The notes under the pieces: model-generated
The model's input: the letters and a program-made list of their open reading frames with translations, nothing else
The model's database searches: none
Told to the model about the DNA's origin: nothing
Assembly (NCBI GenBank): GCA_902800525.1
Contig: CADCEV010000008.1
Span: 25,057 to 89,056 of the forward strand
DNA length: 64,000 nucleotides
From: an uncultured Bacteroidales bacterium
GTDB taxonomy: Bacteria > Bacteroidota > Bacteroidia > Bacteroidales > Paludibacteraceae
Direction of reading: 5' to 3'
Shown: piece by piece, positions 10,447-45,888 of the stretch
Layout of the letters: each line of letters begins with the position of its first letter
Numbering within the stretch: the first letter of the stretch is position 1
Position numbers and translations under genes: made by a program

Positions 10447-11979
10447 ATGAAAAACACAAATCTCCTAAAACTCTCTGTAGCCGGAGTATTGTTAGCCGGC
10501 TGGCTCATGGTCAATGCGTCCGTTGTAACTTATACATCGGATAACACCACTGTTTTCAAGAACCCCGAAAGAGGTTTCACCGATGAAATAAGCGCTGTCG
10601 TTTCAGATAAGAATCCGAATGTGCTGAAAGGCGAAATAGAAGAAGAATGGGGGGATAATTACCAAATGTCAATGCCCGTTGTGCTCTATAACTTCAAAAA
10701 TTTCAAATCGAGAGACTTATCCGATAAAGTGCTCAAAGGCTTTGACGAGGACATGCAACTGCTTCGGGCAAATGGTCTGAAATGTGTGCTGCGTTTCGCT
10801 TATACGGAAGATGAAGATGACAAAGTGGATGCATCGCCGGAATGGATTAAACGTCATTTGGAGCAGCTAAAACCTTATTTGGCGAAGAATGCGGATGTTA
10901 TTTATGTGTTGGAAGCAGGCTTTGTGGGCGTTTGGGGTGAATGGTATTATTCTACCTATTATGGCAATGAGACCCAGCATATGAATGAGAATCGCCGGAA
11001 AGTGATAGATGCTTTATTGGCAAACGTGCCGGCTGACCGCTTTATCCTTTGCCGCTATCCGCTAATCAAAACAGGTTATTTGGGAGACGAAATTCCTTTG
11101 ACGGCAGAGGAGGCTTTTACCGGCAGTGTGCGTGCCAGAATAGGACACCATAACGATGCTTTCTTGAATGAATATGGGAATGAAGGAACATACGGACGTG
11201 ACGGAGACGGACCGGACGATGACCCTCTTTTGCGTCAGTATATCGCTACGGAGACACTTTTTGTGCCGAATGGAGGGGAGACGAATGTGGAGAGTTCGAG
11301 TTTGGCGAAAAAAGTATATACCGATGGTCCGAGCGAAATGAGTACATACCACTGGTCTTTCTGCGGCTCCAATTATGCAACGCAAGTGACGAACAGATGG
11401 CGTAATAGCGGGTTGTTTGACACCCTTAATATCCATATGGGTTATCGCTATAACTTGGTGGACGGTAAATATAGCGATGAGGTAGCGCCGGAAGGGAAGA
11501 TGAACGTCACCATCCGCGTGCGAAACGATGGATACGCACCTATTTATAATAAACGCACGGCGTATATTGTGCTCAAAGGAGCAGATACATATGTCCTGCC
11601 GCTCAAATCGGACCCGAGAAGATGGTTGCCGAATGACGTTGTGTCCGCAATTAACGAGCAGGTGGACATTCCTCAGAATGCCAAAGAAGGAACGTACCGG
11701 CTTTATCTCTGGTTGCCGGATGAGTATGAGTCGATTAAGAACGATCCGCGTTACGCTGTCCGTCTGGCGAACAAGGATGTATGGGATAGCGAAACCGGAA
11801 TGAACAAACTGAATGCGTCGGTGACCATCTCCAAATCGGCTTCACAAGACCCCGGAAATTTGCCGACAGAAGCGATCTCGCTAACGGAAGAAAGTGCTCC
11901 AAAAGAACCTTGTAAGATTATTGAAAACGGAATCTTTTATATACTGATGCCCAATGGAAAAAAATACTATTGTTTTTGA
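10447..11979 (+). CDS. Secreted DUF4874/DUF4832 protein with shortened C-terminal tag
   Basis: This 510-residue protein starts with a signal peptide ending near VNAS. The N-terminal half (NPERGFTDEI, then RFAYTEDED, VIYVLEAGFVGVWGEWYY) is a DUF4874 TIM-barrel-like domain, and the second half (FRRR-like YRLYLWLPDEY and DPRYAVRLANKDVW) is DUF4832. The family is linked to glycan loci but its activity is not established. A paralogue at 41335 is a lipoprotein without a tag. This copy ends with KIIENGIFYILMPNGKKY, the front part of the tag seen in five other proteins here, and then stops early. The stop lies 26 bases inside the HAD gene. I use the ATG at 10447 because an earlier in-frame start would place a non-hydrophobic stretch before the signal peptide. 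Confidence 0.85.
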   Translation: MKNTNLLKLSVAGVLLAGWLMVNASVVTYTSDNTTVFKNPERGFTDEISAVVSDKNPNVLKGEIEEEWGDNYQMSMPVVLYNFKNFKSRDLSDKVLKGFDEDMQLLRANGLKCVLRFAYTEDEDDKVDASPEWIKRHLEQLKPYLAKNADVIYVLEAGFVGVWGEWYYSTYYGNETQHMNENRRKVIDALLANVPADRFILCRYPLIKTGYLGDEIPLTAEEAFTGSVRARIGHHNDAFLNEYGNEGTYGRDGDGPDDDPLLRQYIATETLFVPNGGETNVESSSLAKKVYTDGPSEMSTYHWSFCGSNYATQVTNRWRNSGLFDTLNIHMGYRYNLVDGKYSDEVAPEGKMNVTIRVRNDGYAPIYNKRTAYIVLKGADTYVLPLKSDPRRWLPNDVVSAINEQVDIPQNAKEGTYRLYLWLPDEYESIKNDPRYAVRLANKDVWDSETGMNKLNASVTISKSASQDPGNLPTEAISLTEESAPKEPCKIIENGIFYILMPNGKKYYCF

Positions 11980-12574
11980 TTTAGGCGGGGTGATTATTAA
12001 CCTCAATGTGCCCCGTTGTGTAGCTAATTTCAAGCAACTGATGACGGAAGAGAACGTCCGCAACGTGCTTGGTATAGACGATGACGGCGAGGGAGTAGTG
12101 GCTGTCAGTGCGGCTACCAAGCAGTTGATGCACGATTACGAGTACGGAAACATCTCCACCGATGAGTTCCTCCATACACTTCAGGAGTATTGCTTCGAAG
12201 GAACGACCATTGACCAGATCCGAGCGGCGTGGCTGAGTATGTTGGACGAACTGCCACAGGAGCGTCTGGACTACATTGCATCCTTGCGTGAGAGAGGATA
12301 CAGAACGATTTTGCTCTCTAATTCCAATGAATTGCATTGGGACCCGATTTGGGAGCAATATAACTTAGGCTCTTATTTCGATGCGGTGTTTGCCTCGCAT
12401 CATCTGCATATGGCGAAGCCGAACAAGGAGATCTTTGATCATGTGGTCAAAGAGGCAAACGTCCTCAATGCACTTTATGTGGACGATCTGGAGAAGAACC
12501 GCAAAGCCGGTGAGACCTTTGCCGGATGGCAGACTTGCGCAAGTATCGATGAACTCAAAACACTAATCCATTAA
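11954..12574 (+). CDS. HAD-IA family phosphatase (YihX-like)
   Basis: This is a 206-residue cytoplasmic hydrolase. The nucleophile motif is FDLGGV (Asp9); the usual second Asp is Gly, as in YihX-type sugar phosphatases. Motif II ILLSNSNELHW, motif III KPNKEIF and motif IV ALYVDDLEKN are intact. YihX in E. coli acts on alpha-glucose-1-phosphate, so a sugar phosphate is a reasonable substrate. The gene overlaps the end of the DUF4832 gene by 26 bases and is followed after 21 bases by a hexosamine-kinase-like gene, which fits a small sugar-phosphate group. Confidence 0.88.
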   Translation: MEKNTIVFDLGGVIINLNVPRCVANFKQLMTEENVRNVLGIDDDGEGVVAVSAATKQLMHDYEYGNISTDEFLHTLQEYCFEGTTIDQIRAAWLSMLDELPQERLDYIASLRERGYRTILLSNSNELHWDPIWEQYNLGSYFDAVFASHHLHMAKPNKEIFDHVVKEANVLNALYVDDLEKNRKAGETFAGWQTCASIDELKTLIH

Positions 12575-12595
12575 CCCACTAACCCTCTAATCCAT

Positions 12596-13699
12596 ATGAA
12601 CGAAATACTCAGGCATTTTGCTATTACGAATGAAGTAGTAGCACCCGAACCGCTGCGAATCGGATTTATCAATGACTCCTTTATCGTCCGCGCGGCGCGG
12701 ATAGGCGAGAAATCTTATTGCATGCAACGCATCAATCATCATATTTTCAAGGATGTAGAAGGACTGATGCGTAATATTCAGTTGGTAACGGATCATATTC
12801 GGCGGAAATTAGAGGCGGCAGGTGAGACAGATGTCGAGCGCAAAGTGCTGCAATTAGTGCCCACCAAAGAGGGTAAACTGTTTTACAAGACCCCGCAAGG
12901 CGATTATTGGCGTTTGTATGTGCTGGTCGAACCCGCTACTTCTCAGGAAAAAGTGACGCCGGCGTCGGCGGAACTGACAGGACAAGCCTTCGGACGTTTC
13001 CAACGCCAGTTGGCAGACCTGCCCTTTGATGCTTTGTGCGAGTCGATACCTAATTTCCATAACATGGAATACAGGTTGCAGCAACTCGATGAGGCAATTT
13101 CCGAAGCGAAAGCACTTCCGTCCTCCGATGTACGCAGAAAAAGACTCGATGCGTGTCAGGATATTATCGATGAAATCGACAAAAGACGCGAAGATATGTG
13201 CCTCGCGGAGCGTTTGTTCCGGGAGGGCAAATTGCCCAAACATATAAACCACTGCGATACGAAAGTGAATAATGTGCTCTTTGATGAAGAGGGCAGACCG
13301 ATCTGTATTGTCGATCTCGATACGGTCATGCCGGGCTTTGTCTTCAGCGACTTCGGTGATTTTATGCGTACTGCCGCTAACACCGGCGCGGAGGATGATC
13401 CGAACTTGGCGAACATCCATGTGGACTTGGACGTCTTTGAGTCGTACGCGCGAGGCTACTTGAAGGAAGCTACGTTCCTCACCGACATCGAGAAAGAGTT
13501 ATTGCCGTATGGCTGTCGTTTATTGAGTTATATGCAAACGGTTCGTTTCTTTACCGATTACATCAACGGCGATACCTATTACAAAATTGCGTACCCCGAG
13601 CATAATCTCGTCCGCACGCGTGCCCAGCTCCGCCTTGTCCAAGAGCAGGAAAATGCCGAACCTCAAATGAAAGAAATCATCTGCCGCTTGAGTAAATAA
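12596..13699 (+). CDS. APH-fold kinase, N-acetylhexosamine 1-kinase (NahK)-like
   Basis: This 367-residue cytoplasmic kinase has the aminoglycoside-phosphotransferase fold. HCDTKVNNVLF (about residues 219-229) holds the catalytic Asp, and IVDLDTVMPGFVFSDFGD (from about 239) the metal-binding Asp. The second motif and the N-terminal GFINDSF are characteristic of the NahK group, which phosphorylates GalNAc or GlcNAc at C1 and feeds the lacto-N-biose pathway. In this context a GalNAc or GlcNAc kinase is attractive, as the window has other galactosamine-type genes. The family-level call is firm; the substrate is inference. Confidence 0.82.
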   Translation: MNEILRHFAITNEVVAPEPLRIGFINDSFIVRAARIGEKSYCMQRINHHIFKDVEGLMRNIQLVTDHIRRKLEAAGETDVERKVLQLVPTKEGKLFYKTPQGDYWRLYVLVEPATSQEKVTPASAELTGQAFGRFQRQLADLPFDALCESIPNFHNMEYRLQQLDEAISEAKALPSSDVRRKRLDACQDIIDEIDKRREDMCLAERLFREGKLPKHINHCDTKVNNVLFDEEGRPICIVDLDTVMPGFVFSDFGDFMRTAANTGAEDDPNLANIHVDLDVFESYARGYLKEATFLTDIEKELLPYGCRLLSYMQTVRFFTDYINGDTYYKIAYPEHNLVRTRAQLRLVQEQENAEPQMKEIICRLSK

Positions 13700-13721
13700 A
13701 AGAAGATAAACCCCAAAAGAG

Positions 13722-14291: not shown

Positions 14292-14308
14292 GTGCACACC
14301 AATACATC

Positions 14309-14335: not shown

Positions 14336-14366
14336 GCATATATGGCCTGTTGCGGAATGCTAAAGG

Positions 14367-14533: not shown

Positions 14534-17500
14534 TTATTGAATATGTTGTCCTTGCATGTTATACATCTCATTTCCGCGGATGATGACGATCTGTCCGTTA
14601 TACAGCACTTTGCGAGCAGCATCACCGGAGGTCTCTACGTTCAGAATAGATGTGGTGATCTGTTCTTTTTCGATGATTCGTGCGCTGCGCAATGCCTTAG
14701 GTGAGCCGAGTGCTGCGGGCACATCGTGGATCTCAAACCAAGCGCGCATACCCGGCATGTCGTAATCAACTGAGAGGAAGAACACTTTGTTCTCCGGTCC
14801 CACATAGAGCAGATCATCGCTGGCTGTAAGCGGCGTCTTGACAAACGATCCTACAAAGTTGGCATTTGTTTTATTTGTGGCTGATGCGGTATATGCTGTG
14901 AATGTGACATCTGTAAATACCGGGTTCACAATATCGTGTGACGGTTTGATGAGAACCGGCGTGCCGGGCCAGATGTCTGAAGCCGGGTTTACCGTAAGGT
15001 TTAATATATAATCTTCGATGGTTGCTCCGCCCAATGTATAAATCTCCACATCGTTGCCGAATACTTCTTTGCATTGTGAGTTGCTTACTCCAAACGGCAG
15101 ACAGAAAGTATTGTTCATTCCGCCTCTGAACGAACGGATAATTTGCACGTCATATGTATGTTCATCCCCCACTTTTGCATACCATGAGGTGTTGTCCGTA
15201 GCGTTTTCATCAAGGGTAACAAATTCTGGCTCAGAAACAACCATACTTATCATATGACCATCTGAATGATTCGTTGTATTCTGAACCATTACAAAATAGT
15301 TACCTGCTTCCAGTTCAAAGTAGTGCTTAATTGTTTTCGCTCCGCTACCCGGATTTTTTGCATAAACTTCCAGTTCATTATTCTCGCTATTCAGAATAGT
15401 AATCTTATATGATTGCTCATTTGTACTACTTACATTCATCGTAAAGAGGTACAAGCCCGGAGTAGAAACACTTACTTTCCATTTTGCCCATTGATCCAAA
15501 ATATATCCTCGTTTATCAGAAGGAGTAAAATAGAGTTCTCCGCCATCCTCATAAGCCAATTCGCTGGTAATAGCGTTTCCAGCAGGTAATGTATTCGGCA
15601 GTGCAATAATAGGAGCCACAAAAGCAACCGCTTGTACACTAACTATTTTAGCATCGGAGTTACTAGTTACGGAATTTTTGATTTCCATAACATAATCTCC
15701 TGCCGGCAAGAATCTTCTACCAAGATCAAGTGCGCCTGTAGTGTTGTGCCATGCTGATTCGGCTACACGTGCCACTTGTGTCTCTCCGTCATAGAAGGTA
15801 ACGCTATAAATGTGTCCGCTTGCTACATCGCTGTTAAGTGTAATGTCGTAGTAATCGCTATTTGCTACGGTTACATTCCAGCGAAGCCATTCAGAAGCAA
15901 CTGCATTTCCGGAGAATGAAATCTTGCCATCAGCGCGGCTTCCATTAGCAGAGAAGTACGCATCGTTGATATTTGTCTCGAAATTAGCAGTATTGGTGAT
16001 AGTTTGTACATCTCCACCTGCATATGCGAGAGTTACGTTCGCTACGCCGCAACGTGTTTCTTTACGAGGATTAAGCAGTTTGACGGTGTAAACGCCTTCT
16101 GCCGGAATATGAATAGTTCCCGGTAAATTAACAGTTGGGTATGTACTATATCCATCTTCGCTTCCATCTGTGTATGGACCTTCTTGTACAGAACCAACTA
16201 AACTGTTGTTACTATCGCGTATCTCAACAACGAATATATGGTTGCCATTTTGGTACATTTTAGAATCACCCGCGTCAGTTGTCCATGTATTGTCCGCCAT
16301 GTTAACCGTTGCTTGCACGTAGCAAGCCTTTGTTGTCTTAATAATCCATTCAGCGGTTCCCGTTGTAGCATTAATGTGAATATACCGGATATAAGGATGT
16401 ATGGGGGCAGATTCGTTTGTTTCAAGTGTAATATTACCATTCAATTTTGCTTTAGCAGCAGTAAATGCATACCCGCTTGCAAAGTCAGTTTCCGGATATA
16501 TAGCCGGTGTGTACCAACGCGGATCGCCTAAATCAGAGCCATCTGTTCCGGCATTCCGCGCCGGAGAAACATTGCCGTTAGCGTAGTCACCCGGGAAAGT
16601 AAAATCACCATTTGCGGCATCTGTGAAGAGCGGATTGGAAGCATTGCAATTAGTTATTATCAAACCTGAACGAGAAGGAATGCCAATATTACTATCTTTC
16701 GTATAGTTGTACATAATACAGTTCGTTATCGTAGTTCCTGCGCTCAGACCTGAAGGAACATATACTGTTCTTTGGCTACCTGTACTTTCCGGCATCGCAA
16801 AAATACAATTGGTAACAACAGCGTTTGGTGATGCTACTTTTACTGTTCCATAATCGGTATTTAAGACTTGGCAATTATAGAATGTACAGTGATCAACCGT
16901 AAAGGATCCTGCTGCTGTTTTTGATTCAACAACACCTGCCGAAAGACTGCTTGCATTGATATTCTTAAAAGTACAGTTCGCTACCGATATATCATTATCG
17001 GCAGTATTTTCTAAAAAGATAGCACTACTTGTGATGTCGTAGAATGTGCAATTGTTAATAGCGCAAGAACCTATACTCGCGCCACTTGACTCATGAATAG
17101 CAGTGGAACTATTATTCGCAAAATCACATCTCGAGATCTCAAGGCTTGTAATAGTACCCGAACCATAATTATCTATGGCAGGATAAGTCGTAAGGTTCTC
17201 GAATTGGCTATTTGTAATACTTAAAGACCCGATAGTTCCTTGGTTGATAACTGTTCTATTGGAGTTGTTATGAAAATAACAATTTGTAATGATTATGGCA
17301 TTTGCATTCTTGCCACTCGGTATAGATACACAATATTTACTTAATGAGCAGAATTCGCAATTTTCAAATTCAAGCACATTTGCTGCATCATCATAAAGGT
17401 GAAAATAATTATCATAGGAAGATAGATTTGTTCCGTCAAACTTTACACCAATAAATTTAGCATTAACAGCTTCTCTAACTTGGAAGGGAACTTCGTACTT

Positions 17501-17752
17501 AATAACTGGATGTTTACCCTCAATCGCTCTAAAGGTGATGTGTTTACCACTTCTGAGTTTTGTATAATCAACCCCTTCTTTTTTTACATTGAAGTAAGGA
17601 GTAGCATCATCCAAATAGATGGTTTCGCCATCTCCAACGGCTATGACAGCTGCGGAAAGAGAATTTTCAACTGATGGATCAGGATACTGATCCGCTGCAT
17701 TTGCCAACATCGATAGCAAAAATGCGGGAATGAGTAAAAATAGTTTTCTCAT
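14534..17752 (-). CDS. Large secreted right-handed beta-helix protein with C-terminal tag
   Basis: This 1072-residue protein has a signal peptide (MRKLFLLIPAFLLSMLANA). Residues about 20-410 form a right-handed parallel beta-helix with repeating ITNCxFxN rungs, ending in ARNAGTDGSDLGDPRWY as in DUF4957/DUF5123-type lyase-like proteins. Three beta-sandwich modules follow (about 415-585, 585-715 and 715-845); the first resembles the N-terminal module of the protein at 29208. A region at about 845-1030 (RSFRGGMNNTFCLPFGV...) is common in Bacteroidales exoproteins. The end is the tag: KVLYNGQIVIIRGNEMYNMQ and GQHIQ. A role in binding or cleaving an extracellular glycan is likely, but no catalytic residues can be named. 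It is transcribed from about 17945 with a leader of about 190 bases. Confidence 0.8.
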   Translation of the reverse strand: MRKLFLLIPAFLLSMLANAADQYPDPSVENSLSAAVIAVGDGETIYLDDATPYFNVKKEGVDYTKLRSGKHITFRAIEGKHPVIKYEVPFQVREAVNAKFIGVKFDGTNLSSYDNYFHLYDDAANVLEFENCEFCSLSKYCVSIPSGKNANAIIITNCYFHNNSNRTVINQGTIGSLSITNSQFENLTTYPAIDNYGSGTITSLEISRCDFANNSSTAIHESSGASIGSCAINNCTFYDITSSAIFLENTADNDISVANCTFKNINASSLSAGVVESKTAAGSFTVDHCTFYNCQVLNTDYGTVKVASPNAVVTNCIFAMPESTGSQRTVYVPSGLSAGTTITNCIMYNYTKDSNIGIPSRSGLIITNCNASNPLFTDAANGDFTFPGDYANGNVSPARNAGTDGSDLGDPRWYTPAIYPETDFASGYAFTAAKAKLNGNITLETNESAPIHPYIRYIHINATTGTAEWIIKTTKACYVQATVNMADNTWTTDAGDSKMYQNGNHIFVVEIRDSNNSLVGSVQEGPYTDGSEDGYSTYPTVNLPGTIHIPAEGVYTVKLLNPRKETRCGVANVTLAYAGGDVQTITNTANFETNINDAYFSANGSRADGKISFSGNAVASEWLRWNVTVANSDYYDITLNSDVASGHIYSVTFYDGETQVARVAESAWHNTTGALDLGRRFLPAGDYVMEIKNSVTSNSDAKIVSVQAVAFVAPIIALPNTLPAGNAITSELAYEDGGELYFTPSDKRGYILDQWAKWKVSVSTPGLYLFTMNVSSTNEQSYKITILNSENNELEVYAKNPGSGAKTIKHYFELEAGNYFVMVQNTTNHSDGHMISMVVSEPEFVTLDENATDNTSWYAKVGDEHTYDVQIIRSFRGGMNNTFCLPFGVSNSQCKEVFGNDVEIYTLGGATIEDYILNLTVNPASDIWPGTPVLIKPSHDIVNPVFTDVTFTAYTASATNKTNANFVGSFVKTPLTASDDLLYVGPENKVFFLSVDYDMPGMRAWFEIHDVPAALGSPKALRSARIIEKEQITTSILNVETSGDAARKVLYNGQIVIIRGNEMYNMQGQHIQ

Positions 17753-23558: not shown

Positions 23559-25892
23559 ATGAAAAGGCTTTCCTTCATAGTATCCTGCATAGCTCTGGCA
23601 CTGAATGTGTCAGGGGCTATGCGGTACGTGAGCAAGACGGGGTATGAAGGCTATGACGCGGAGAGCAGAGAGCACGCTGTACGTACTATTCAGTTGGGAC
23701 TGGATTATTGTCACGCAGGAGATACCTTGTTGATAGAAGAGGGCGTATATCATGAAGGTATTCTGTTGAAAGACGGTGTGACGATTCTTGGTGAGGGGAC
23801 GGTCATTTTAGATGGTACGGATCTGCCTATGCGGCTCATTACTTGTTCGGAGGATTGTGTGTTACCTACAAGGGTAGAGAATCTGATATTACAGAATGCC
23901 CGTCATAACGAACGCGGAGGTGCGGCATGGCTTAGGGGCAAAGTGGTGATGCGGCATTGCGTCATACGCGGGTGTAGCGGCCAACAATGCGGCGGTGTAC
24001 TGATCAAAGGCGATTTGCCGGAAGCCAGCGGTAAGGGCGCTACCATGACGGATTGTATCGTGCATAACTGCGAGGCGACAGGCAGTTACTGGCCGGACGC
24101 GGGCGGTGTGGCTAATTTCGACGGTGCGATACGAGAGTGCGTTGTAGCTAATTGTTATGGCAAACGTTACGGCGGCATTCATAGCGAGAGTTCGGTAACC
24201 GGATGTACGTTATGGGGAAACCGCAATGAGTACGGATTTGTGGATCCGGCGAACTATATCTCCGATGAGAGCGACTCCGATATGAGCCGCGCGGATGAAG
24301 GGTTTGAGGAGAAATTCTTCCGGAAGCCGTGGTTAGACACCCATAACGAAGCGCCGAACGGTCCACATTTTGTCGATCCGACGGGTTTTGCCGGTGTTCC
24401 TCAGACGCCCGAGGAAGAGGCGATGTTGTTAGTGGCGGATTATCGCATCGGACAGCCGACCCATCGTATCGCTGCCATGCCGCAGGGTCAGAAAAGGGTA
24501 GATCCCTATGCAGACTACAGGCTGTACGAGAAAGCGGATTACAGTATTCCGAGTTTTGTGGCACATCTGACGGATGAGACGGTAGCGTTGCAACCGAAAG
24601 AGCAACCTTATTGCGCGGTGGCTACCATCAACGGTGACCCGAAGAGCCGGATGGCTTTTGCCTGGTTTACCAACGAAGGCGTGAAAGAAGGAGAGGTAGA
24701 GATCACGAGATTACGGGATCACGTGGTCACGAGAGTAAAAGCCTCCACAACTACTACGATTCCGCTTCATTACGCCATTTCCAGTTCGGGGGTTCTGAAT
24801 GCCGCGAAGATGGACAAGCGGACTTCATTCCGGTATGAGAGCCATAAGGCATTGGCGGAAGGTTTGACGCCGGGAACGGAATATAGTTGGCGCGTCGGGT
24901 ATGAAGGACATTGGAGCGAAATAGGGCATTTCCGCACGGCGGACGATGAGACTGACTTTCAGTTTGTCTATATGACCGACAGCCATATACAGAATAAAGA
25001 ATATATAGATCAGGCGCGCCTGTGCGCGGACGCTGTGGCGCGAAATGAGAAAGAGGCGCGGTTCTGTGTCTTCCCGGGTGATTTTGTAGATACAGGCACC
25101 GAGAATAACTCCGAATGGGAATGGGAAAGGTGGTTCGAAGAGGCGATGAAACCGGTGCTTTTGGCTATGCCGGTTGTTCCGACCGATGGTAACCATGACG
25201 ACAGTCCGCTGATGAACTACAGTTACCATTTCAACACGGACACCACTTTTAATAAGGAAACCCAAGTACGGCCACAGTTCGCAGGAATCAACTATAGTTT
25301 TGTCTATGGACCGATGCAGATGATTGTCTTCTCAATGCAGGATTTCTGGCGGGGTGAGTATGATTTGGCAGGGAGAAGATCCGCGTATTTGGAGCAAGAT
25401 CTTGGTCCGTGGATGCAACGTCAGGCTGCGGCTCATCCGGAAGCGAAATGGCGTGTGGGCTTGGTACATAAGAATCTCTTCTCCGGCTCGGGACATCAAC
25501 ATGACAAGGAGTCGCCTCTGTTACGGAAGACGATGCTGCCGGTAATGAAAGAGGTGAAGATGGATTTAGTGTTACAAGGTCATGACCATTGTTACGAAGT
25601 AATAGGTCCGGTGGACAGTACGTTGTATTTCATCGGAGCTACCTGCGGCGCCAAACGATATGAACCCTTTACCCGCGAAGAGATGGAAGCGAGCAAAGCG
25701 ATTCACGAAGTAGAGAATTACTATGATCTTTTCCAACATCTAGCGCAAACGGGCGCACCGAGTTATACGCGGGTGACGGTCAGCAAAAAAGAGTTGCTAT
25801 TGGAGACATTCAAAGTGCTGGAAGACGGAAAGACGGAGCTATTTAACCGATTTACTTATTCCCGAAATAACGGAATAACGAAACAACGATAA
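23559..25892 (+). CDS. Secreted beta-helix + metallophosphatase protein without tag
   Basis: This 777-residue protein has a signal peptide (ending near VSGA). Residues about 20-260 are a right-handed beta-helix (HAVRTIQLGLDYCHAGDTLL, DGVTILGEGTVILDGTD, MTDCIVHNCEATG). An FN3-like purple-acid-phosphatase N-domain follows (GDPKSRMAFAWFTN ... TPGTEYSWRVGYEGHWSEIG). A calcineurin-like phosphoesterase covers about 465-720: MTDSH (472), GDFVDTG (507), GNHDD (545), HKN (636) and GHDHC (674), so the bimetal site appears intact. It likely cleaves a phosphate ester outside the cytoplasm. Its paralogue follows directly, carries an extra Ig-like domain and a C-terminal tag; this copy ends KVLEDGKTELFNRFTYS, with no tag. 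Confidence 0.85.
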   Translation: MKRLSFIVSCIALALNVSGAMRYVSKTGYEGYDAESREHAVRTIQLGLDYCHAGDTLLIEEGVYHEGILLKDGVTILGEGTVILDGTDLPMRLITCSEDCVLPTRVENLILQNARHNERGGAAWLRGKVVMRHCVIRGCSGQQCGGVLIKGDLPEASGKGATMTDCIVHNCEATGSYWPDAGGVANFDGAIRECVVANCYGKRYGGIHSESSVTGCTLWGNRNEYGFVDPANYISDESDSDMSRADEGFEEKFFRKPWLDTHNEAPNGPHFVDPTGFAGVPQTPEEEAMLLVADYRIGQPTHRIAAMPQGQKRVDPYADYRLYEKADYSIPSFVAHLTDETVALQPKEQPYCAVATINGDPKSRMAFAWFTNEGVKEGEVEITRLRDHVVTRVKASTTTTIPLHYAISSSGVLNAAKMDKRTSFRYESHKALAEGLTPGTEYSWRVGYEGHWSEIGHFRTADDETDFQFVYMTDSHIQNKEYIDQARLCADAVARNEKEARFCVFPGDFVDTGTENNSEWEWERWFEEAMKPVLLAMPVVPTDGNHDDSPLMNYSYHFNTDTTFNKETQVRPQFAGINYSFVYGPMQMIVFSMQDFWRGEYDLAGRRSAYLEQDLGPWMQRQAAAHPEAKWRVGLVHKNLFSGSGHQHDKESPLLRKTMLPVMKEVKMDLVLQGHDHCYEVIGPVDSTLYFIGATCGAKRYEPFTREEMEASKAIHEVENYYDLFQHLAQTGAPSYTRVTVSKKELLLETFKVLEDGKTELFNRFTYSRNNGITKQR

Positions 25893-25921
25893 TTTTTATT
25901 AACCCCAAAATAATTAATAAC

Positions 25922-28900
25922 ATGAAACGATTTTTACTTCTTTTGACGTTGAGCGCAGCGGTGCTGTGCGCGTCAGCAAGTAACCGTTATGTTTCGCCGA
26001 CAGGCGATGATGGAGACGGTAAGTCCTGGGAACATGCGAAGACCACTATTGCCGGAGCAATTTGGAGTGTGGGCGTTGGCGACACGATGTTTATCGCCGA
26101 AGGAGTGTATAACGAGGCGATCTCGGCGCAAGACGGAGCTACCTATATGGGTGGTTACAATGCCGAGACAGGAGAGCGTGACCTTGAGTTGTACGAGAGT
26201 ATCTTGGACGGTACCGGTATGACTTCATGGTTACTGGTTAAATACGACAATCCACCTGCTAATCCAATTATGATTGATGGTTTGGTGTTCCAAAACGCCA
26301 AACATAACACATGGGGCGCAGCGGCTGTGTATATGCGTGGAAACATGACGGTACAGAACTGTCATTTCCGCGATTGTGAGAGCGGTTCGAATGCCGGTGC
26401 TATCTGGATAGAGCAAGGCGCGAGCGAAGTAGCTGCTGTTGTTCGTAACTGCCTTATTGAGAACTGTGTATGTACCGGTACCGAAAGCGGTGTCGGCGGA
26501 ATTTACAGTACAGAAGGACAAGGACTTATTGAGAACTGTGTTATCCGTGGTTGTAAGGGAAGTATAGGTGGAATTCGCAACAATGCGGGTATTGTGCAGA
26601 ATTGTGTGCTGTATAACAACCACTCGACCTATAACGGATGTATTTATGGAGCGGGTTCGTTCTTCAATAATACGATTTGTAATAACTACGGCGACCGTTA
26701 TGCCGGCAGCCGTACGACGGGTCGCGTGACGAATACGGTATTTTGGGGCAATTCGACGACTTATGAATATGTCAATTATGTAGATGCTTCTTCCGGAGCC
26801 ACTATGAATATCGGTGATGCAGGAACAGGTATCACGTTGGGCCTGAATACCAACAACAGTGCAGAAGACGGACCGAACTTTATGAACCCGACAAATTTCG
26901 TGGGTCTGCCGAAGACGGAAGTAGAGAAGACATCGATGGCTAAAGCCAGCTTTGCTTTAACGGCATTCTCGACGAAGTTATTGGATAAGGCGGACGATGC
27001 GAGTGCTCCGGCTAAAGATATAGATGGTGTAAGCCGTCCGAAAGGAACGAAAGCTGATATAGGCGCGTACGAGTATGATCCGAACGCCGTGGTGGTTTCC
27101 GTAACCGGCGTAAGTATTGTGCCTGCATCGATTGAGATTATCGAAGGAAAGACGGGTACGTTAGTAGCGCAAGTAGTACCGGAGAATGCGAACAACAAAC
27201 GCGTAGAGTGGTCAATTGACAATCCGGCGATAGCTACTATTCAGAACGGTAAGGTAACGGGAGTGGCAGTTGGAACCACCACCGCACGCGTAAAGACCCT
27301 GGACGGTGAGTTCACAGCCAGCGCATCGGTTATAATCAAGCCGAAACCGCCTGTAAAATATCCGCAAGAGGTATTGGACGCTGAGGCGAAGTATAAGATG
27401 GAGGACTTCACAGTTCCGAGTTATATTAAGTTCCTTGTGCCGAAGACTGCCGCTAAGATCGACAGCCTTGAAGAGGATAACGCACCTCTGCTGCCGACTA
27501 TTGCAGGCAATATCGCCAAGATGAACGAGGCAATCGCTAATCTACAGCCGAAACAAATGCCATATAACCAGATTGCTACTATCTACGGCGATCCGGCAAC
27601 GCATATGGGTTTCTGCTGGTTCACGAACGGCGGTATCACCGAGGGCAAGGTGCAATTGGTAGCCAAGGCGAATGCTACGGCAGCAGATTTTACCGAGTCT
27701 AACGGTGTGATAGAAGTGAGCGCTCAGACGACCAACGCCAATCTCCACTATACGCCTATTCAGGCTTCCGAAAGCCCAAAGTACGATATCTGTACTGCTG
27801 CGGGTCTGCCGCGTAACACGAAGTTTGATTACGTGAGCCATAAGGCGCAAGCAACTAATCTGACCCCGGGAACCGTTTATAGCTGGCGTGTGGGTTACGG
27901 CGAGTACTGGAGCGAGATTGCACAATTTGTCACCAAAGATGCTAACCAGGGTGATTTCTCGTTCATTTATATGTCGGACAGCCATATACAAGATTATGAG
28001 TATATTGAGGAAGCGCGTAAATGCGCCGCGGCAGTAGCCAAGAATGAGTCCGATGCCAAGTTCTGTCTCTTCCCGGGTGACTTTGCCGATACAGGCGGAG
28101 ACACGAACTCGGAGTGGCAGTGGGAGCAATGGTTTGACGGCTCAATGCGTGCGGCATTGAACAAGATGGCTTTTGTTCCGACCGATGGAAACCACGACGA
28201 CAGTAAGAGCCTGAACTACGACTACCATTTCAACACCGATTGGGGATTTGCGAATGCAGCGCAGACCAAGCCACAGTTCAAGGGTATTACGTACAGTTTC
28301 GTCTATGGCGATGTGCTGTTCCTCGTCTATTCGTTGCAGGATTGGTGGCGTGCAGAAGGAACAACGGAAGAGGGAATGCAGTCACCGTATTTGTCACTGG
28401 ATGTACGTAACTGGTTCTTGGACGAGATTGCCAAACACCCGAACACGAAGTACCGTGTGACCCTGTCGCACAAGAACATCTTCTCCGGTGCAGGTCACCA
28501 CACGGACGACGAGTGCCCGCTGATCCGTAATATGATGCTTCCGATCTTCAAGGAGTGTGAGATCGACTTGGCTATTCAAGGTCACGACCACTGCTACGAG
28601 GTAATGGGTCCCGTTAATCCGGATACGCGTACGGTGATTGAAAATGCGATAAGCGGTGTAGAATCGGTATCCGTGAATACAAATACGAATATGACCGGAA
28701 AGAGCGGTGGTACGTTTACCACTGACGACGGAACGCTTTATTTCATCGGTGCTACTTGCGGACGCAAGCGTTACTATCCATATACCAAACAGAAAATGGA
28801 GGAAGAATATACGGAAGATCCGTCGATCCTGTTTGATTATCACCACCATAACGTGCAAGACCTGTTTAGCATGTTCACTTCCCGTTTCGGTCAGCCGGGT

Positions 28901-29158
28901 GCTCCTTCTTATTCCCGCTTTAATGTAACGAGCGAGGGTATAGAGGTAGTGACATACAAGACAGATGACAGTGGCAACAAGGAGGTATTCAACACTATTA
29001 AGGTAAAACGTACCAAACCGCATACTTCCACTACGGGTATTGAGAATGTGAATGTTATGCCGAATGTGCAGAATGGAGAGAAATTCATCCACAACGGCCA
29101 GCTCTACATCCTCAAAGATGGCAGAATTTTCAATATGATGGGACAAAAAGTGCAATAA
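25922..29158 (+). CDS. Secreted beta-helix + Big_2 + metallophosphatase protein with C-terminal tag
   Basis: This 1078-residue paralogue of the previous gene has a signal peptide (MKRFLLLLTLSAAVLCASAS). The order is beta-helix (about 20-385, many ENCVIRGC-like rungs), a Big_2 Ig-like domain (about 392-473), a spacer, the purple-acid-phosphatase N-domain and the phosphoesterase domain: SDSH (684), GDFADTG (719), DGNHDD (755), SHKN (850), GHDHC (886). All metal ligands are present. The end carries the tag: TGIENVNVMPNVQNGEKF, then HNGQLYILKDGRIFNMMGQK and VQ. It is exported and probably surface-attached. Gene spacing of 29 bases on the left and 49 on the right keeps it in the operon. Confidence 0.87.
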   Translation: MKRFLLLLTLSAAVLCASASNRYVSPTGDDGDGKSWEHAKTTIAGAIWSVGVGDTMFIAEGVYNEAISAQDGATYMGGYNAETGERDLELYESILDGTGMTSWLLVKYDNPPANPIMIDGLVFQNAKHNTWGAAAVYMRGNMTVQNCHFRDCESGSNAGAIWIEQGASEVAAVVRNCLIENCVCTGTESGVGGIYSTEGQGLIENCVIRGCKGSIGGIRNNAGIVQNCVLYNNHSTYNGCIYGAGSFFNNTICNNYGDRYAGSRTTGRVTNTVFWGNSTTYEYVNYVDASSGATMNIGDAGTGITLGLNTNNSAEDGPNFMNPTNFVGLPKTEVEKTSMAKASFALTAFSTKLLDKADDASAPAKDIDGVSRPKGTKADIGAYEYDPNAVVVSVTGVSIVPASIEIIEGKTGTLVAQVVPENANNKRVEWSIDNPAIATIQNGKVTGVAVGTTTARVKTLDGEFTASASVIIKPKPPVKYPQEVLDAEAKYKMEDFTVPSYIKFLVPKTAAKIDSLEEDNAPLLPTIAGNIAKMNEAIANLQPKQMPYNQIATIYGDPATHMGFCWFTNGGITEGKVQLVAKANATAADFTESNGVIEVSAQTTNANLHYTPIQASESPKYDICTAAGLPRNTKFDYVSHKAQATNLTPGTVYSWRVGYGEYWSEIAQFVTKDANQGDFSFIYMSDSHIQDYEYIEEARKCAAAVAKNESDAKFCLFPGDFADTGGDTNSEWQWEQWFDGSMRAALNKMAFVPTDGNHDDSKSLNYDYHFNTDWGFANAAQTKPQFKGITYSFVYGDVLFLVYSLQDWWRAEGTTEEGMQSPYLSLDVRNWFLDEIAKHPNTKYRVTLSHKNIFSGAGHHTDDECPLIRNMMLPIFKECEIDLAIQGHDHCYEVMGPVNPDTRTVIENAISGVESVSVNTNTNMTGKSGGTFTTDDGTLYFIGATCGRKRYYPYTKQKMEEEYTEDPSILFDYHHHNVQDLFSMFTSRFGQPGAPSYSRFNVTSEGIEVVTYKTDDSGNKEVFNTIKVKRTKPHTSTTGIENVNVMPNVQNGEKFIHNGQLYILKDGRIFNMMGQKVQ

Positions 29159-29207: not shown

Positions 29208-31100
29208 ATGAAAAAACTATTTCTATTTTTCGCTGCGATGCTGGTAGCAGTAGCAGTGAATGCGCAAACGGATTTCTCAACCCCGGGTTATTCCTGCGCA
29301 GCAGATGACGCTGTTCTTGCTAATGTCTACGGATTATCTCTTGTCACATCCGCAGAGCCTCACTACATTCAATGTGCAGAAGCAACTTATAACGTTGTAC
29401 TGGCAACTTGGACTGTTTCAGCTACACGTGGTTGCTATATCTCTGCTTCTTTGGACATGGGTCCAGCTTACGGATCTAACAAACATATCTTTGAGGTTAC
29501 AATAAAGGATAGCAAAGGTAATACCAAAGGTACGTTAGTTGAAGCTGCAGAAAGTACGGCTGCTGACAAAGTAGTAGCTTTGGATGGCACCATTCTTATC
29601 CCGGCTGAAGGCGAATATACCGTAGAATTAATAAGCAGACGCCAATATGGTAAAGGTACTATCAAGAATATCATCCTAACTTATGCAGCTGATGCTCCGT
29701 CGGAGATCATTGATGTTGCTTCTGTTGAACTCAACAAGAGCGAGGTAATGCTGGATCTTGAGGAAGTAGAATTACTCGTAGCTACCGTTAGTCCGGACAA
29801 TGCTACCGATCCTACGGTAACTTGGGAAAGTAGTGATGAAGCTGTTGCAACAGTAAGCGAAACCGGTTTGGTTAAAGCAATTGCTGAGGGTACTGCTACT
29901 ATTAAAGCAAAAGCTGGCGAGAAAGAAGCTACATGTGCAGTTACCGTAGCAGCTGCGGCTGTTCCGGAGGTTAATTTCGCTGATCCTTGCGTTTTGGCTG
30001 GTAAAGTAGCGCATCTGGAAGGAGCTATCTGGAAAAATGAGAACTATAAACTTTATGGTGACGGTGGTAGCAACAAAAATTATGGAACAGCATCTTGGAC
30101 GATTAATGTAACCAAACCGTGCGTTGTAAATGGTGTACTTAATGGAGTAGAAGGTGGTCATATTTTTGGTGTAGATTTGTATCAAGGCGAAAAGTTGATC
30201 GGTTCTCTGGAACAACCGGAAGGAAAAACTTGGAGTGCAGGTGAGATTGCTTTAGATGGAACACTTACCTTCGCAACCGCAGGCAATTATACTATCAAAC
30301 TCCGTAATACGCAAGAGTGGTCTTCGGGTAAAGTGGCCGGTGTAACCCTTACATATGTAAGTGATCTGCCGAAAACACTCTATTTGAAGCCGGGTGTATG
30401 GGCTGCTGATGGCGCTAAGTTTGCCGTTTGGGATATTACCCATAGTGCATGGTCTGATTTTATGACTTTAGCTGCCGGAGAGACCGACATCTATACCACT
30501 ACGGTTTCTGCTGCTGCCGCTAAAGTAATCTTCGTTCGTTTGAATGGTGAAGCCACTGCGCCTGACTGGAAAGACAAATGGAATCAATCGGGTGATCTGG
30601 ATATCGTAGAAGGCAAACTGTACGTTATTACTACCGCTGAGGGAGCAGGTGCTTGGGGAAATCTTGATCCTGTTTTGGAGAACGGATACTATCTCGTTGG
30701 TAAATTCAATGGTGTTGAACAATGGGATTATGCAAGTCTGAGCGCGGAGAAGAAACTCGCTACAAGCCCTGAGACTGAGAACGAATACATCATTACAGTA
30801 GCTTTGAAAGCAGATGATAAATTCAAAGTTATCTCTTTAGAGAATGACGTTTTCATGACTTGGTATGGAGAAAATGATTATGTAGTTACTGCCGCTACTG
30901 CCGGAGCATCAAAGACCATTTATTTCAGTCCGGTTTATAAAGATGCTTGGGGTGGTCATTATTACATCCAAGCTAACGATCCGACAGCTATTTCTAACAC
31001 AGAGGCTGAGGTGAAGGCACAGAAAGTTATTGAGAACGGACAGATCTTTATTCTCAAGAACGGCGTTAAGTACAACGTATTAGGTGCAAGTGTAAAGTAA
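29208..31100 (+). CDS. Secreted multi-module glycan-binding protein with C-terminal tag
   Basis: This 630-residue protein has a signal peptide (ending near VNAQ). Module 1 (about 20-165) is a beta-sandwich similar to the first module of the beta-helix protein at 14534. A Big_2 domain covers about 168-247. A second beta-sandwich lies at about 250-390, then a module of the LYLKPGVWAADGAKFAVW type (about 390-485), frequent in Bacteroidales exoproteins, and a YYLVGKFNGVEQWDYA module (about 487-590) like the starch-binding modules of SusE/SusF. The end is the tag, KVIENGQIFILKNGVKYNVL followed by GASVK. No catalytic domain is visible, so a binding role is likely. It is the last gene of the operon and is followed by a terminator. 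Confidence 0.8.
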   Translation: MKKLFLFFAAMLVAVAVNAQTDFSTPGYSCAADDAVLANVYGLSLVTSAEPHYIQCAEATYNVVLATWTVSATRGCYISASLDMGPAYGSNKHIFEVTIKDSKGNTKGTLVEAAESTAADKVVALDGTILIPAEGEYTVELISRRQYGKGTIKNIILTYAADAPSEIIDVASVELNKSEVMLDLEEVELLVATVSPDNATDPTVTWESSDEAVATVSETGLVKAIAEGTATIKAKAGEKEATCAVTVAAAAVPEVNFADPCVLAGKVAHLEGAIWKNENYKLYGDGGSNKNYGTASWTINVTKPCVVNGVLNGVEGGHIFGVDLYQGEKLIGSLEQPEGKTWSAGEIALDGTLTFATAGNYTIKLRNTQEWSSGKVAGVTLTYVSDLPKTLYLKPGVWAADGAKFAVWDITHSAWSDFMTLAAGETDIYTTTVSAAAAKVIFVRLNGEATAPDWKDKWNQSGDLDIVEGKLYVITTAEGAGAWGNLDPVLENGYYLVGKFNGVEQWDYASLSAEKKLATSPETENEYIITVALKADDKFKVISLENDVFMTWYGENDYVVTAATAGASKTIYFSPVYKDAWGGHYYIQANDPTAISNTEAEVKAQKVIENGQIFILKNGVKYNVLGASVK

Positions 31101-41334: not shown

Positions 41335-42738
41335 ATGAAGAACAAATATCTTATATTGGCAGCAGCATTGTTGTTACTCGCTTGTAAAAAAGATGAGCCG
41401 GTGATACCGATACCGGAACCGGATCCGGAAGGCACGGTCTATTTCACGGAAAGCGAAGAACAGATAGCCAACCCTGAACGTGGATTCTATGTCCAGAAAT
41501 ACTACACGACAGAAGATTTGGAAGACACAGTGACGATAGCTACCATCACCAACCAACGCGACTTGTCTCATATTACGCTCTTCCTTCACTCTTATTATCT
41601 GACGGATTATATTGAGAGTGATATCGCCCCCGCGTTTCTGGAGCGTTTGGAGCGAAATATGAACGCACTTCGAGCTGGCGGTGCGAAAGTAATATTGCGT
41701 TTTTCATACAAATCAAATCATAATAAAAACGATAAACCGTGGGATGCTACTCCCCAATGGGCCAATAAGCATATTGACCAGATAGCTCCGTATCTGATGA
41801 AGCACGCAGATGTGATTTATTGCATCCAATGCGGCTTCATCGGATCGTGGGGAGAGTGGTATTACACAGATAATTATCCGTTTAATCCGTACGATGATGA
41901 TGAGTTCAAGCCGTATTTCGAAATAGCAGATCATCTAATGAATGTGACTCCGAAAGACCGTCAGATTTGTTTCCGTCAACCGCAGTTCAAGATGCGTTAT
42001 TTGAAGATGCACAAGATGGAAGTGGCGCCCCTTACCCCGTCAGAAGCTTATCAGCAGACCGTTAAAGCGCGTTGGGCAGGACATAATGACTGTTTCGTTT
42101 CTTCTCCGAGTGATAAGGGAACGTATCATAACGATGAAGAGAGAGCATTCTGGGCCGAGGACACCAAATATACCCTCATGGGAGGAGAGACGTGTGAGGA
42201 ATGTGAATATTCTGTCGGCGAGAATGCCATCAAGGAAATGGAAAAATACCACTGGTCGTACATCTGCAATTCGTATCACCCCGCTATTTTGGGTTCATGG
42301 GTAACAGATGGCTATTATGAGGAGATAAAGCGCCGGATAGGTTACCGTTTCGTACTGGATAAGGCATATTTAACACAGCAGCCGGCGGCAGGAAACACCT
42401 TCGAGGCAAAAATCACGCTGCATAACGCCGGTTTTGCTGCTCCGGCTAACAAACGCGAACTGGAAATGATATTTGTATCGGTGAGTGACCCGGATAAGAA
42501 ATTTGTATATAAACAAACCGAAGATCCTCGTTTCTGGATGGCTGGCGAGAAACGTGTAGTCAATCTCAGCTGCAAGCTGGATGCCGGAATGAAAGGCGAA
42601 TACAAATTATATCTCAACTTGCCCGATCCGTATGCATCGCTTCATGATGATCCGCGATATAGCATCCGTCTGGCGAACAAGGATTGTTGGGATGAAAAGA
42701 CCGGCTATAACTACCTGACCACGGTCACTATAGAGTAA
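41335..42738 (+). CDS. DUF4874/DUF4832 lipoprotein
   Basis: This 467-residue lipoprotein (lipobox LLAC, Cys17) is a paralogue of the protein at 10447: NPERGFYVQKY, LRFSYKSNHNKND, VIYCIQCGFIGSWGEWYY, GGETCE, SYHPAILGSWVTDGYYEEIKRRIGYRF and DPRYSIRLANKDCWDE align with it. The DUF4874 part is barrel-like and the DUF4832 part a beta domain. Function is not established. This copy is lipid-anchored and has no C-terminal tag, whereas the other copy has a plain signal peptide plus the start of the tag. It lies between the surface lipoprotein and the transporter, within the PUL. Confidence 0.88.
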   Translation: MKNKYLILAAALLLLACKKDEPVIPIPEPDPEGTVYFTESEEQIANPERGFYVQKYYTTEDLEDTVTIATITNQRDLSHITLFLHSYYLTDYIESDIAPAFLERLERNMNALRAGGAKVILRFSYKSNHNKNDKPWDATPQWANKHIDQIAPYLMKHADVIYCIQCGFIGSWGEWYYTDNYPFNPYDDDEFKPYFEIADHLMNVTPKDRQICFRQPQFKMRYLKMHKMEVAPLTPSEAYQQTVKARWAGHNDCFVSSPSDKGTYHNDEERAFWAEDTKYTLMGGETCEECEYSVGENAIKEMEKYHWSYICNSYHPAILGSWVTDGYYEEIKRRIGYRFVLDKAYLTQQPAAGNTFEAKITLHNAGFAAPANKRELEMIFVSVSDPDKKFVYKQTEDPRFWMAGEKRVVNLSCKLDAGMKGEYKLYLNLPDPYASLHDDPRYSIRLANKDCWDEKTGYNYLTTVTIE

Positions 42739-42768
42739 AAGACAATGGTTTAAATAACAAACTATTTT

Positions 42769-43653: not shown

Positions 43654-43681
43654 TAGTATTAACCCATTAAATTTAATCAGT

Positions 43682-44299
43682 ATGAAAAAACTTTTCCTTT
43701 TTGCTGCTTTGTTTGCAGCTGTAACAATGAGTGCAAAAGAATTGACCATTGATCTTTCGAAAGGCCAATCAACCGGTGGAGCAGCTTTGGCTTTGGATAA
43801 TGGAGAGCTGACCGTTTCCTACAATTTGGAATCATGGGGAGCCGGTGGTGTTTCATTCGCGCTGGACAATCAGGATGTAACCAATATCGCTTTTGAATAT
43901 ATAGGTGATGCAACGGTAGAAGCATGGGTATCGTTCCTCGTATATCTGGTTGACAGTGAAGGCGGTATGTGGTATAGTTCGACAGCGGATTTGAGTATAT
44001 CTTCCTGGGTAAACGAATGGTCTAGTCAGAGTTATATGCCGAGTGATATACTTTGGGAATCCAGTACTGCTGAAGCTCCGGTTAAACCGTTCACTGCGTT
44101 GGTTTTCATTGCTAATCCCGAAGTAGCAACCGCAGCTACCTTTGCTATCCGCAATGTAAAAATCACCGTTCCGGATGATGAAACTGCTATCGATAATACA
44201 GTAGTAGAAGGTAAGGCAGTGAAAGTGATCCGTGACGGTCAAGTGATGATTATTCGTGACGGCAAGGCATTCAATGCACTTGGAGTAGAAATGAAATAA
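43682..44299 (+). CDS. Small secreted protein with novel module and C-terminal tag
   Basis: This 205-residue protein has a signal peptide (MKKLFLFAALFAAVTMSA). One module follows, about residues 20-165: ELTIDLSKGQS, VSYNLESWGAGG, SFLVYLVDSEG, ALVFIANPEVAT and FAIRNVKITV. The next protein carries the same module, so it forms a paralogous pair. The end is the tag, with AIDNT and KVIRDGQVMIIRDGKAFNAL followed by GVEMK. I do not recognise the module; a beta-sandwich binding role is a guess. The start is ATG 43682, since the upstream open frame encodes no signal-like sequence. Confidence 0.75.
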   Translation: MKKLFLFAALFAAVTMSAKELTIDLSKGQSTGGAALALDNGELTVSYNLESWGAGGVSFALDNQDVTNIAFEYIGDATVEAWVSFLVYLVDSEGGMWYSSTADLSISSWVNEWSSQSYMPSDILWESSTAEAPVKPFTALVFIANPEVATAATFAIRNVKITVPDDETAIDNTVVEGKAVKVIRDGQVMIIRDGKAFNALGVEMK

Positions 44300-44307
44300 A
44301 CATTATT

Positions 44308-45888
44308 ATGAAAAAATTATTCCTTTTGGCGGCAGCCATTTGTGCTGCAGTCGGTATCAATGCAGCTGTCATTGAACTGGATTTGAGTAAAGCCTCGCAG
44401 TACGCCACTGCGGGGTCGGCAACGCTAAACTATGCCAATGGGGAACTGACCGTTGACTGGACTGTAACTGAGGCATGGGAAGTGAGTGGTATTGAGATTC
44501 CTTTGAAAAGTGTCAAGGGAATAGTGGGTATTCAGTATGAATATGCAGGCGACGGTTCAGCACATAGTTTCTTGCACTATCTCAGGGACTTACAAGGTAA
44601 CTTTTGGTGGGATTCGAACGGATGGTTTAACTTTGAATCAACCTCTTGGCAATCCGCCTCTGTCACTCCTTCTACCGCTTTGTGGTGTACGCCGAGTTAC
44701 GAGTATGGCGTATCTCCAATGCTCGCATTGTGCTTTGTGGCTAATCCCGAAACACCGACTTCGGGAACGTTCAAACTGCGTAATGTGAAGATTATTACTT
44801 CCGGAGAAGGAGGCGGTGATACAATCCCTGAAGGACAATCGCTGCCGCTGACCTATAACGGCGAGATTCTGCCGATTAATACGGAATTTGAGCGTAGTAT
44901 GACAGGAACCCTCAGCGAATCACTCTTACTACCGGAGATCTCCGGCATAGCTTGTTCGCGCGTTACTCCGGGCTATATATGGATGCAAGGAGATGAGACG
45001 GATAGAGATACGAACCCATTTATCATTGCTACTGATGAGACCGGCTCCAAACTGGCGGCTAAAGTAAGTTTTAACAAGGTCTATCGTTGGGACTGGGAAG
45101 ATATGTGCGGCGGTGTGTATAATGATACTAATTATCTTTTCATCGGTGGTTTTGGTGATAACAACCATACCGACGGAGAATATTGCATCATTTATTTCAA
45201 AGAGCCGGCTATCACCCCTCAAAGCCCGGATGTATCGGTTACGGCTTCTCGTATCAAATTTGCTTATCCGGATGGTCAGAAACATAACTGCGAGGCATTG
45301 ATGTACGACAATATAGAGCAAAAACTATACATCATCACCAAAGTATATTACGATGTTTGCCAGGTATTTAGTTTGCCGTTCAGCCTCAATTACGGCGAAA
45401 CGCAACAAACACTCACGTATGTTTGTGATTTAGGTGTGACGAGTGATATAGGGATGAATGAAATGAATCAGCGCTGCCGAGGCTTCCATCTCGTTACGGC
45501 TGCCGATATTACTCCGGATGGTAAATATATCCTGATCAAGAATCACAATAATATCGAGGCTATCTATTCCTGGACGTTGTATTGGGAGAGAACCGGAAAC
45601 GAGAGCATCAGTGAGACGTTGAAACGCCAGCCGCAAGTGATTGATTGCTATCAGTATGAGTGGCAGGGAGAAGCTATCTGTTGGTTAGATAACAACACAT
45701 TCTATACAACCTCTGATTCGGACGGGGAGCCGCCTATTTATAAGTACGTCAGAGATGCCCAAACAGGTATTGACAACGTGAGCAAAACGACTTCGTCACA
45801 GCGGGAAATGGTCTGCATTGATAACGTGCTGTACGTCCGTAGTGCAGAGGGGTTGTATTCGTTAGACGGACGAAAAGTGAAGTTCTGA
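44308..45888 (+). CDS. Secreted protein: novel module plus beta-propeller-like domain, C-terminal tag
   Basis: This 526-residue protein starts with a signal peptide (ending near GINA). Residues about 20-165 repeat the module of the previous gene (VIELDLSKAS, LALCFVANPETPTSGTF, KLRNVKIIT). From about 175 to 485 a beta-rich domain contains LLPEISGIACSRVTPGYIWMQGDE, DDNHTDGEYC-like GGFGDNNHTDGEYC and NCEALMYDNIEQKLYIITK. Such repeats resemble a six-bladed-propeller fold. The tag at the end is diverged: TGIDNV, then a DNVLYVRSAEGLYSLDGRKV stretch. Last gene of the PUL; the next gene is convergent, and I see no strong terminator in between. Confidence 0.72.
   Translation: MKKLFLLAAAICAAVGINAAVIELDLSKASQYATAGSATLNYANGELTVDWTVTEAWEVSGIEIPLKSVKGIVGIQYEYAGDGSAHSFLHYLRDLQGNFWWDSNGWFNFESTSWQSASVTPSTALWCTPSYEYGVSPMLALCFVANPETPTSGTFKLRNVKIITSGEGGGDTIPEGQSLPLTYNGEILPINTEFERSMTGTLSESLLLPEISGIACSRVTPGYIWMQGDETDRDTNPFIIATDETGSKLAAKVSFNKVYRWDWEDMCGGVYNDTNYLFIGGFGDNNHTDGEYCIIYFKEPAITPQSPDVSVTASRIKFAYPDGQKHNCEALMYDNIEQKLYIITKVYYDVCQVFSLPFSLNYGETQQTLTYVCDLGVTSDIGMNEMNQRCRGFHLVTAADITPDGKYILIKNHNNIEAIYSWTLYWERTGNESISETLKRQPQVIDCYQYEWQGEAICWLDNNTFYTTSDSDGEPPIYKYVRDAQTGIDNVSKTTSSQREMVCIDNVLYVRSAEGLYSLDGRKVKF

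Follow-up and report, generated by a model that had tools for sequence, protein, structure and literature searches.

The type A C-terminal domain (CTD) of the type IX secretion system (T9SS; model TIGR04183, Por_Secre_tail) is a C-terminal module of signal-peptide proteins with varied bodies. It spans about 70-80 residues in seven strands and carries the motifs B, D and E in that order, with a motif B loop of the form aromatic-D/N-x-x-G-x-x-V and a cleavage-like linker. Type B CTDs (TIGR04131) are C-terminal signals for the same translocon, and excerpts of PMC12618676 associate them with PorP/SprF shuttles. A short form has been described in Prevotella intermedia, with 43-55 residues, the order B-D-E, cleavage at PT/GI with a conserved Ile and a predicted three-stranded sheet; according to that report, no other species of the phylum has been described with CTDs of both lengths (PMC11969387). 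Here we describe a C-terminal tag of about 38 residues found on secreted proteins encoded in a 64,000-nucleotide stretch (hereafter the window) of an uncultured Bacteroidales bacterium of the family Paludibacteraceae (GCA_902800525.1, contig CADCEV010000008.1, positions 25,057 to 89,056). Judging from sequence comparison, this tag is very probably a compact C-terminal sorting signal of the T9SS. We infer that it represents a new form of such signals, and its putative internal motif order would be its most interesting point.

Like the type A CTD, the tag sits at the C-terminus of signal-peptide proteins of varied body, contains the motif B loop and a cleavage-like linker, and is replaced by that CTD on homologous proteins. 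It differs in being shorter, as a preliminary description of the window had noted, in having motif B last and in escaping the TIGR04183 model. Type B CTDs are longer than the tag and of another sequence. With the P. intermedia signals the tag shares its shortness, the predicted three-stranded sheet, the coexistence with long CTDs and the T/GI form of the putative cleavage site (PMC11969387, in part). On the other hand, those signals, as excerpted, keep the order B-D-E and are mostly found by ordinary CTD profiles, whereas the tag has a Lys (K) strand first and motif B last. No report of this tag was found in the open-licence literature searched.

A profile of five window ends, applied at E 1 or below to the draft genome of 2,388,893 bases, returned 100 tag matches. 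We retrieved 94 of the 95 matches outside the window, leaving out C9:135335, which overlaps another match in a second frame; 93 of the 94 end no more than four residues from a stop codon. Together with the five in the window, these make up 98 tagged proteins. A loose heuristic, which also passes 18 of the 39 untagged open reading frames (ORFs) of the window, recognised a signal peptide in 93 of the 98, and a lipobox pattern flagged five, most of these lying inside the hydrophobic core when inspected by eye. A profile of all 98 tags matches the 98 intact proteins, which are its own training set; at E 1 it gave no match in their tag-less bodies or in reversed or shuffled copies. According to Pfam, the 93 non-window proteins comprise peptidases, glycoside hydrolases (GH), lyases, nucleases, leucine-rich repeat (LRR) proteins and adhesin-type domains, with bodies such as subtilase, C10 peptidase, endonuclease I, GH13, GH32, GH53 and pectinesterase, and also BspA-type LRRs and a cleaved-adhesin domain. 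The preliminary description had anticipated that a profile search would return C-terminal matches on exported proteins with unrelated bodies, and the genome largely behaves in this way.

These data bear on the possibility that the tag plays no part in sorting and is just a conserved domain that proteins of a single adhesin-like family carry at their C-terminus. In single-linkage clustering of the bodies at 1e-5, 56 of the 98 fall into one group, as such a family would predict, but this group is probably glued together by repeats such as Big_2, LRR and fn3. Moreover, there are 32 clusters in all, the tag is carried by the diverse enzymes listed above, and it can be present or absent between close paralogues: the window protein 25922 (we name window proteins by the first coordinate of their genes) has it and its neighbour 23559 does not. 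We consider a one-family domain highly improbable.

Within the window itself, we scored all six frames with a hidden Markov model (HMM) trained exclusively on the 93 tags from elsewhere in the genome. Four proteins (29208, 43682, 25922 and 14534) were strongly recovered, each match ending no more than one residue from the stop. The window thus holds four full tags, one diverged tag (44308) and one incomplete tag (10447); the preliminary description had attributed a common C-terminal arrangement to all six proteins, to 10447 in part, which stands in full for the first four. The next-best E was 4.6 among 3912 six-frame ORFs of the window and the reversed window. The 44308 end had also been matched by the five-end profile, which contained that very end. 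The 10447 tag stops short of motif B (terminal G-x-x-V) and overlaps the first bases of the gene that follows at 11954. By eye, signal peptidase I (SPI)-type signals are present in 6/6 of these proteins and a lipobox in 0/6, in agreement with the preliminary description. Its statement that their folds are unrelated holds less well: the bodies of 43682 and 44308 are related (38% identity), and 25922 and 29208 both contain Big_2. Since 43682 and 44308 are paralogues, the window bodies are not all independent, and the statement fares better genome-wide.

We aligned 83 of the 98 tags. Gly46 and an aromatic residue (Tyr or Phe) at position 42 are found in 83/83, Lys26 in 82/83 and Ile35 in 79/83, and exactly four residues follow the motif B Gly in 73 of the 98. 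The (G/A/S)I(D/E/S)N-like linker described previously is present and is similar to the cleavage motif published for the T9SS. In 78 of the 98 we found a loose cleavage-like pattern (T/G-I or T/A-I-like; chance expectation not computed), with a median distance of 38 residues to the stop (range 32-44); cleavage-like motifs are also seen in classical CTDs of the same genus (TAVEN in L206, TAVED in L204). AlphaFold2 models the 50-residue tag as strands 24-29, 32-37 and 40-42 followed by a turn (mean predicted local distance difference test, pLDDT, 82.5; predicted template modelling score, pTM, 0.45). In the model of a 541-residue segment of 25922, aligned with 39 tagged relatives, the tag is again three-stranded, and residues 501-510 of this segment, which hold the TGIEN motif, have a pLDDT below 50, so that the linker is predicted to be disordered. 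In 40/40 aligned 25922-type proteins, a set picked among tagged relatives, Lys, Gly, Ile and Gly of the tag are invariant and the linker is variable.

Relatives of 25922 are encoded at 265 places in genome contigs. The best 80 of these 265 were kept and correspond to 73 named loci, mostly labelled Paludibacteraceae and uncultured Bacteroidales and many from ruminants, with 150 homologous ORFs. Eighty of the homologues are tagged, nine end in a classical CTD and 61 have neither. On these related bodies, the tag and the classical CTD stand at the same point. Long CTD ends occur at five loci (the Barnesiella-labelled L276, L279 and L280, as well as L281 and L285), and short classical ends of the order B-D-E at L275, at L277 and in two ORFs of L289. 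A lipobox was found in none of the 77 tagged homologues with a readable start and in 23 of the 54 readable homologues lacking tag and CTD (one of the 23 being spurious by eye), seven of the 61 having no readable start. The Fisher test for tag versus lipobox (p 4e-11) overstates independence, because the homologues fall into only a few paralogue groups. The exchange of tag and CTD is not universal, since some secreted homologues, 23559 among them, carry neither signal. The earlier proposal that the tag directs export or surface anchoring is supported by this comparison: motif B and the cleavage-like motif are common to the tag and T9SS CTDs, and the two kinds of end appear to be swapped on homologous bodies.

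The same swaps and shared motifs argue against a different outer-membrane sorting route or shuttle, be it of the PorP/SprF type or an unknown machine, in place of PorV. Such a route would be in keeping with the failure of every T9SS CTD model to match the tag, including TIGR04131 (no match at E 0.01 among the 83 tags), and with the restriction of the tag, in our samples, to one family and three stray genomes. Because by eye the ends have no hydrophobic segment followed by a basic tail, an exosortase or sortase-type signal was rejected. Overall, a route other than PorV seems unlikely. No Pfam or NCBIfam family accounts for the tag among the 83 scanned, and one-off matches of single tags (IscA-like, Gar1 and KHA; E 0.003-0.0044) were taken as chance.

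By sequence comparison, the end of the tag matches the essential motif B of CTDs; excerpts of PMC11285876 state that replacing the motif B loop or changing its Gly to Arg blocks secretion, while Gly to Pro had not. An hhalign comparison made first with a six-row classical CTD set (probability 3.9%) was replaced by one with a 42-row set, and the last nine columns of the tag align with motif B at a score of 19.5 (probability 38.9%) versus at most 10.9 in 30 column-shuffled controls. We also compared the columns of the tag, ungapped and with column permutations, with 42 classical CTDs. Strand c and the loop fit best at motif B, which 0/2000 permutations reach (1/2000 in a subset of 15 CTDs labelled as other families). 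The K strand (strand a) fits best, among 86 offsets, at the terminal motif E (2/720 permutations, and 3/720 and 4/720 in two subsets). Strand b fits best directly after motif B, with a score reached by 119/2000 permutations; at motif D it ranks 3-4 of 84 offsets, a place that the linker window 12-19 fits better in the full set. A match of strand b to motif D is therefore suggestive at best. The final Lys strand of motif E/C-t, after B and D, was not found, and an E-like strand lies upstream of motif B instead. The last six residues of the tag are the second-best fit to motif E (5.5 vs 8.5), and the terminal V-K might therefore take its place.

Because the K strand best fits terminal motif E, the motif order of the tag may be reversed, E-(D)-B. 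We tentatively propose that the tag might be a re-wired CTD, in which E (the K-V/I-I/L strand), a D-like strand (Y/F-I) and finally the B loop would present the PorV-contacting elements in reverse chain order, giving the same three-stranded surface with opposite connectivity. In most of the genomes sampled from one genus, such a signal could have become that of the greater part of the recognisable cargo. A simple truncation, in which the tag would be the N-terminal half of a type A CTD in its usual order, cut after motif B with the loss of D and E, is possible though doubtful. It fits the fact that the tag ends where motif B ends, and it stays a candidate because L141, a classical CTD of genome G098, can be aligned collinearly with almost all of the tag (genome search E 0.0017; 19.9 bits). 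Likewise, a score of at least 0 bits is reached by 25 of 41 classical CTDs versus 130 of 2050 shuffles, and 12 of the best 18 align through motif B. However, the E of L141 is a per-genome value and not strong, since L141 was the top-scoring classical CTD across 149 genomes, and the VTIYPNPA element of the CTD N-half reaches at most about 1.9 bits with any window of the tag strands, strand a fitting motif E best. On balance, these comparisons favour the reversed order E-(D)-B over simple truncation.

If the tag is a T9SS signal, its cargo, whose signal peptide is seen in the sequence, would cross the inner membrane by the Sec pathway. The C-terminal module, predicted to be a small three-stranded sheet ending in the motif B loop, would then be taken by Sov/SprA and the PorV shuttle. 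By analogy with the P. intermedia and P. gingivalis work, PorU may cut within the linker T/(G,A)-I-(E,D)-N, which is predicted to be disordered, and join the body to a surface glycolipid. The genome encodes SprA, PorU, PorV (C3:165559-166668, beside PorU) and PorZ, and a further PorV-family protein at C12:76153-77100, presumably PorQ; the gene of one tagged protein (L089) ends about 100 bases before this match. Ten of the 11 TIGR04183 matches in the genome were scanned for identity and include one PorU (L002, C3:166933) and one PorZ (L009, C2:45847), which thus retain the long classical CTD though the compact tag is commoner in this genome.

The tag was found in 41 of 120 genomes of the family, including 8/8 of the same genus. 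Nineteen same-genus genomes carry 11-102 tags and 5-39 TIGR04183 matches each, and the same search gave no tag match in 12 genomes of other families. In a sample of the order, 7 of 149 genomes match the tag profile, our genome included; apart from the latter, three matches lie at the C-terminus or no more than about ten residues from it, one is the classical CTD L141 and two are internal. The two internal matches (L142 and L143) were dropped as tags, as was the spurious L134 (E 0.31). The three terminal ones (L138, L139 and L140, in G111, G108 and G068) are single tagged proteins, each from a different further family of the order; their genes may have been transferred, or they may hint at where the tag arose. 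In a sample of the phylum, 2 of 295 other genomes match, over part of the model only; L301 and L302 cover the same model positions (13-42) as L142 and L143, in frames of similar size. SprA was detected in 140 of the 149 order-sample genomes and in 115 of the 120 family genomes. The nine SprA-less genomes of the order have no tag, and likewise most SprA-bearing ones are tag-free. It had been proposed that the tag would occur only together with T9SS genes. This holds for the family at large and fails for three tag-bearing family genomes with no SprA match; the test has little power, because nearly every sampled genome has a T9SS.

Several observations weigh against our interpretation of the tag as a T9SS signal. 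The three tag-bearing genomes without SprA match are G179 (9 tags), G228 (1) and G247 (1); they are drafts of 88-96% completeness, and SprA is present in G206 and G224, two other genomes of the genus of G179. None of the 83 tags matches TIGR04183, and the similarity to classical CTD profiles is weak outside motif B and strand a. A Foldseek search of the 50-residue tag model against the PDB found nothing at E 0.001 or below, but with so small a query this says little. The motif B Gly is followed by only about four residues, whereas excerpts of PMC11285876 hold the C-terminal residues of the P. gingivalis CTD to be essential and an extension to be tolerated. Five of the 98 frames have no recognisable signal peptide (L050, L059 at a contig end, L065, L107 and L114, the last with a late hydrophobic stretch by eye), and 31 of the 150 homologues of 25922 have a signal peptide but no tag, CTD or lipobox. 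Two same-genus genomes, G248 (11 tags, 39 TIGR04183 matches) and G258 (9 and 41), carry mainly classical CTDs. Finally, tag and TIGR04183 counts are weakly anticorrelated in the 19 genomes (rho -0.42, p 0.07), with -0.35 (p 0.10) in 24 genomes, where some counts are "at least" values, and -0.36 in a third subset; with p about 0.07 or higher in all three subsets, this weak anticorrelation was set aside as proof. G248, which has the fewest tags, also has the highest PorV model score in the genus, which could reflect phylogeny or adaptation to the tag.

If our interpretation is correct, the tag would constitute a distinct class of T9SS signal invisible to the standard model. In this genome the TIGR04183 model picks out 11 proteins, against about 98 for the tag profile, a roughly ninefold difference; short classical CTDs may also escape TIGR04183. 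When the secreted enzymes of rumen Bacteroidales are surveyed with TIGR04183, as in the excerpted part of PMC5831590, a large share of this genus's cargo would go unnoticed. In addition, since the last residues are essential according to the P. gingivalis work, as excerpted (PMC11285876), a compact signal that ends at motif B after about 38 residues would make the CTD parts required by PorV directly testable.

Table 1. Positions in the window of the C-terminal tags and of related or marker genes.
Feature	Position	Strand	Evidence
Tag of protein 14534-17752 (beta-helix/DUF5123 body)	14537..14674	-	HMM E 2.4e-15; genome C8:39593-39730
Tag of protein 25922-29158	29012..29155	+	Five-end profile match; HMM E 1.5e-15
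Tag of protein 29208-31100 (Big_2 protein)	30960..31097	+	Five-end profile match; HMM E 3.5e-19
Tag of protein 43682-44299	44159..44296	+	Five-end profile match; HMM E 5.3e-17
Diverged tag of protein 44308-45888	45739..45882	+	HMM E 0.01 when left out of training
Incomplete tag of DUF4874/DUF4832 protein 10447-11979	11857..11967	+	HMM E 0.0026, model positions 12-44 of 52; Pfam
Untagged secreted paralogue of 25922	23559..25892	+	Alignment, 45% identical; ends about where the neighbour's tag begins
Untagged lipoprotein resembling the 10447 protein	41335..42738	+	Ends and N-terminus read; likeness by eye only
GldH lipoprotein, gliding/T9SS-associated marker	6810..7271	+	TIGR03511 E 1.8e-28

As the preliminary description had stated, gldH is present in the window (Table 1). 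At 11954-11979 the end of the DUF4832 protein overlaps the start of a HAD-family gene, and a similar protein elsewhere (L135) carries a full tag. The body of 25922 combines a beta-helix, Big_2, a purple-acid-phosphatase N domain and a metallophosphoesterase. Related metallophosphoesterases stand side by side in arrays at 23559-29158 and at L229, L232, L248 and other loci. The lipoprotein form was not seen between 23559 and 25922; such arrays comprise an untagged SPI form, a lipoprotein form and a tagged form.

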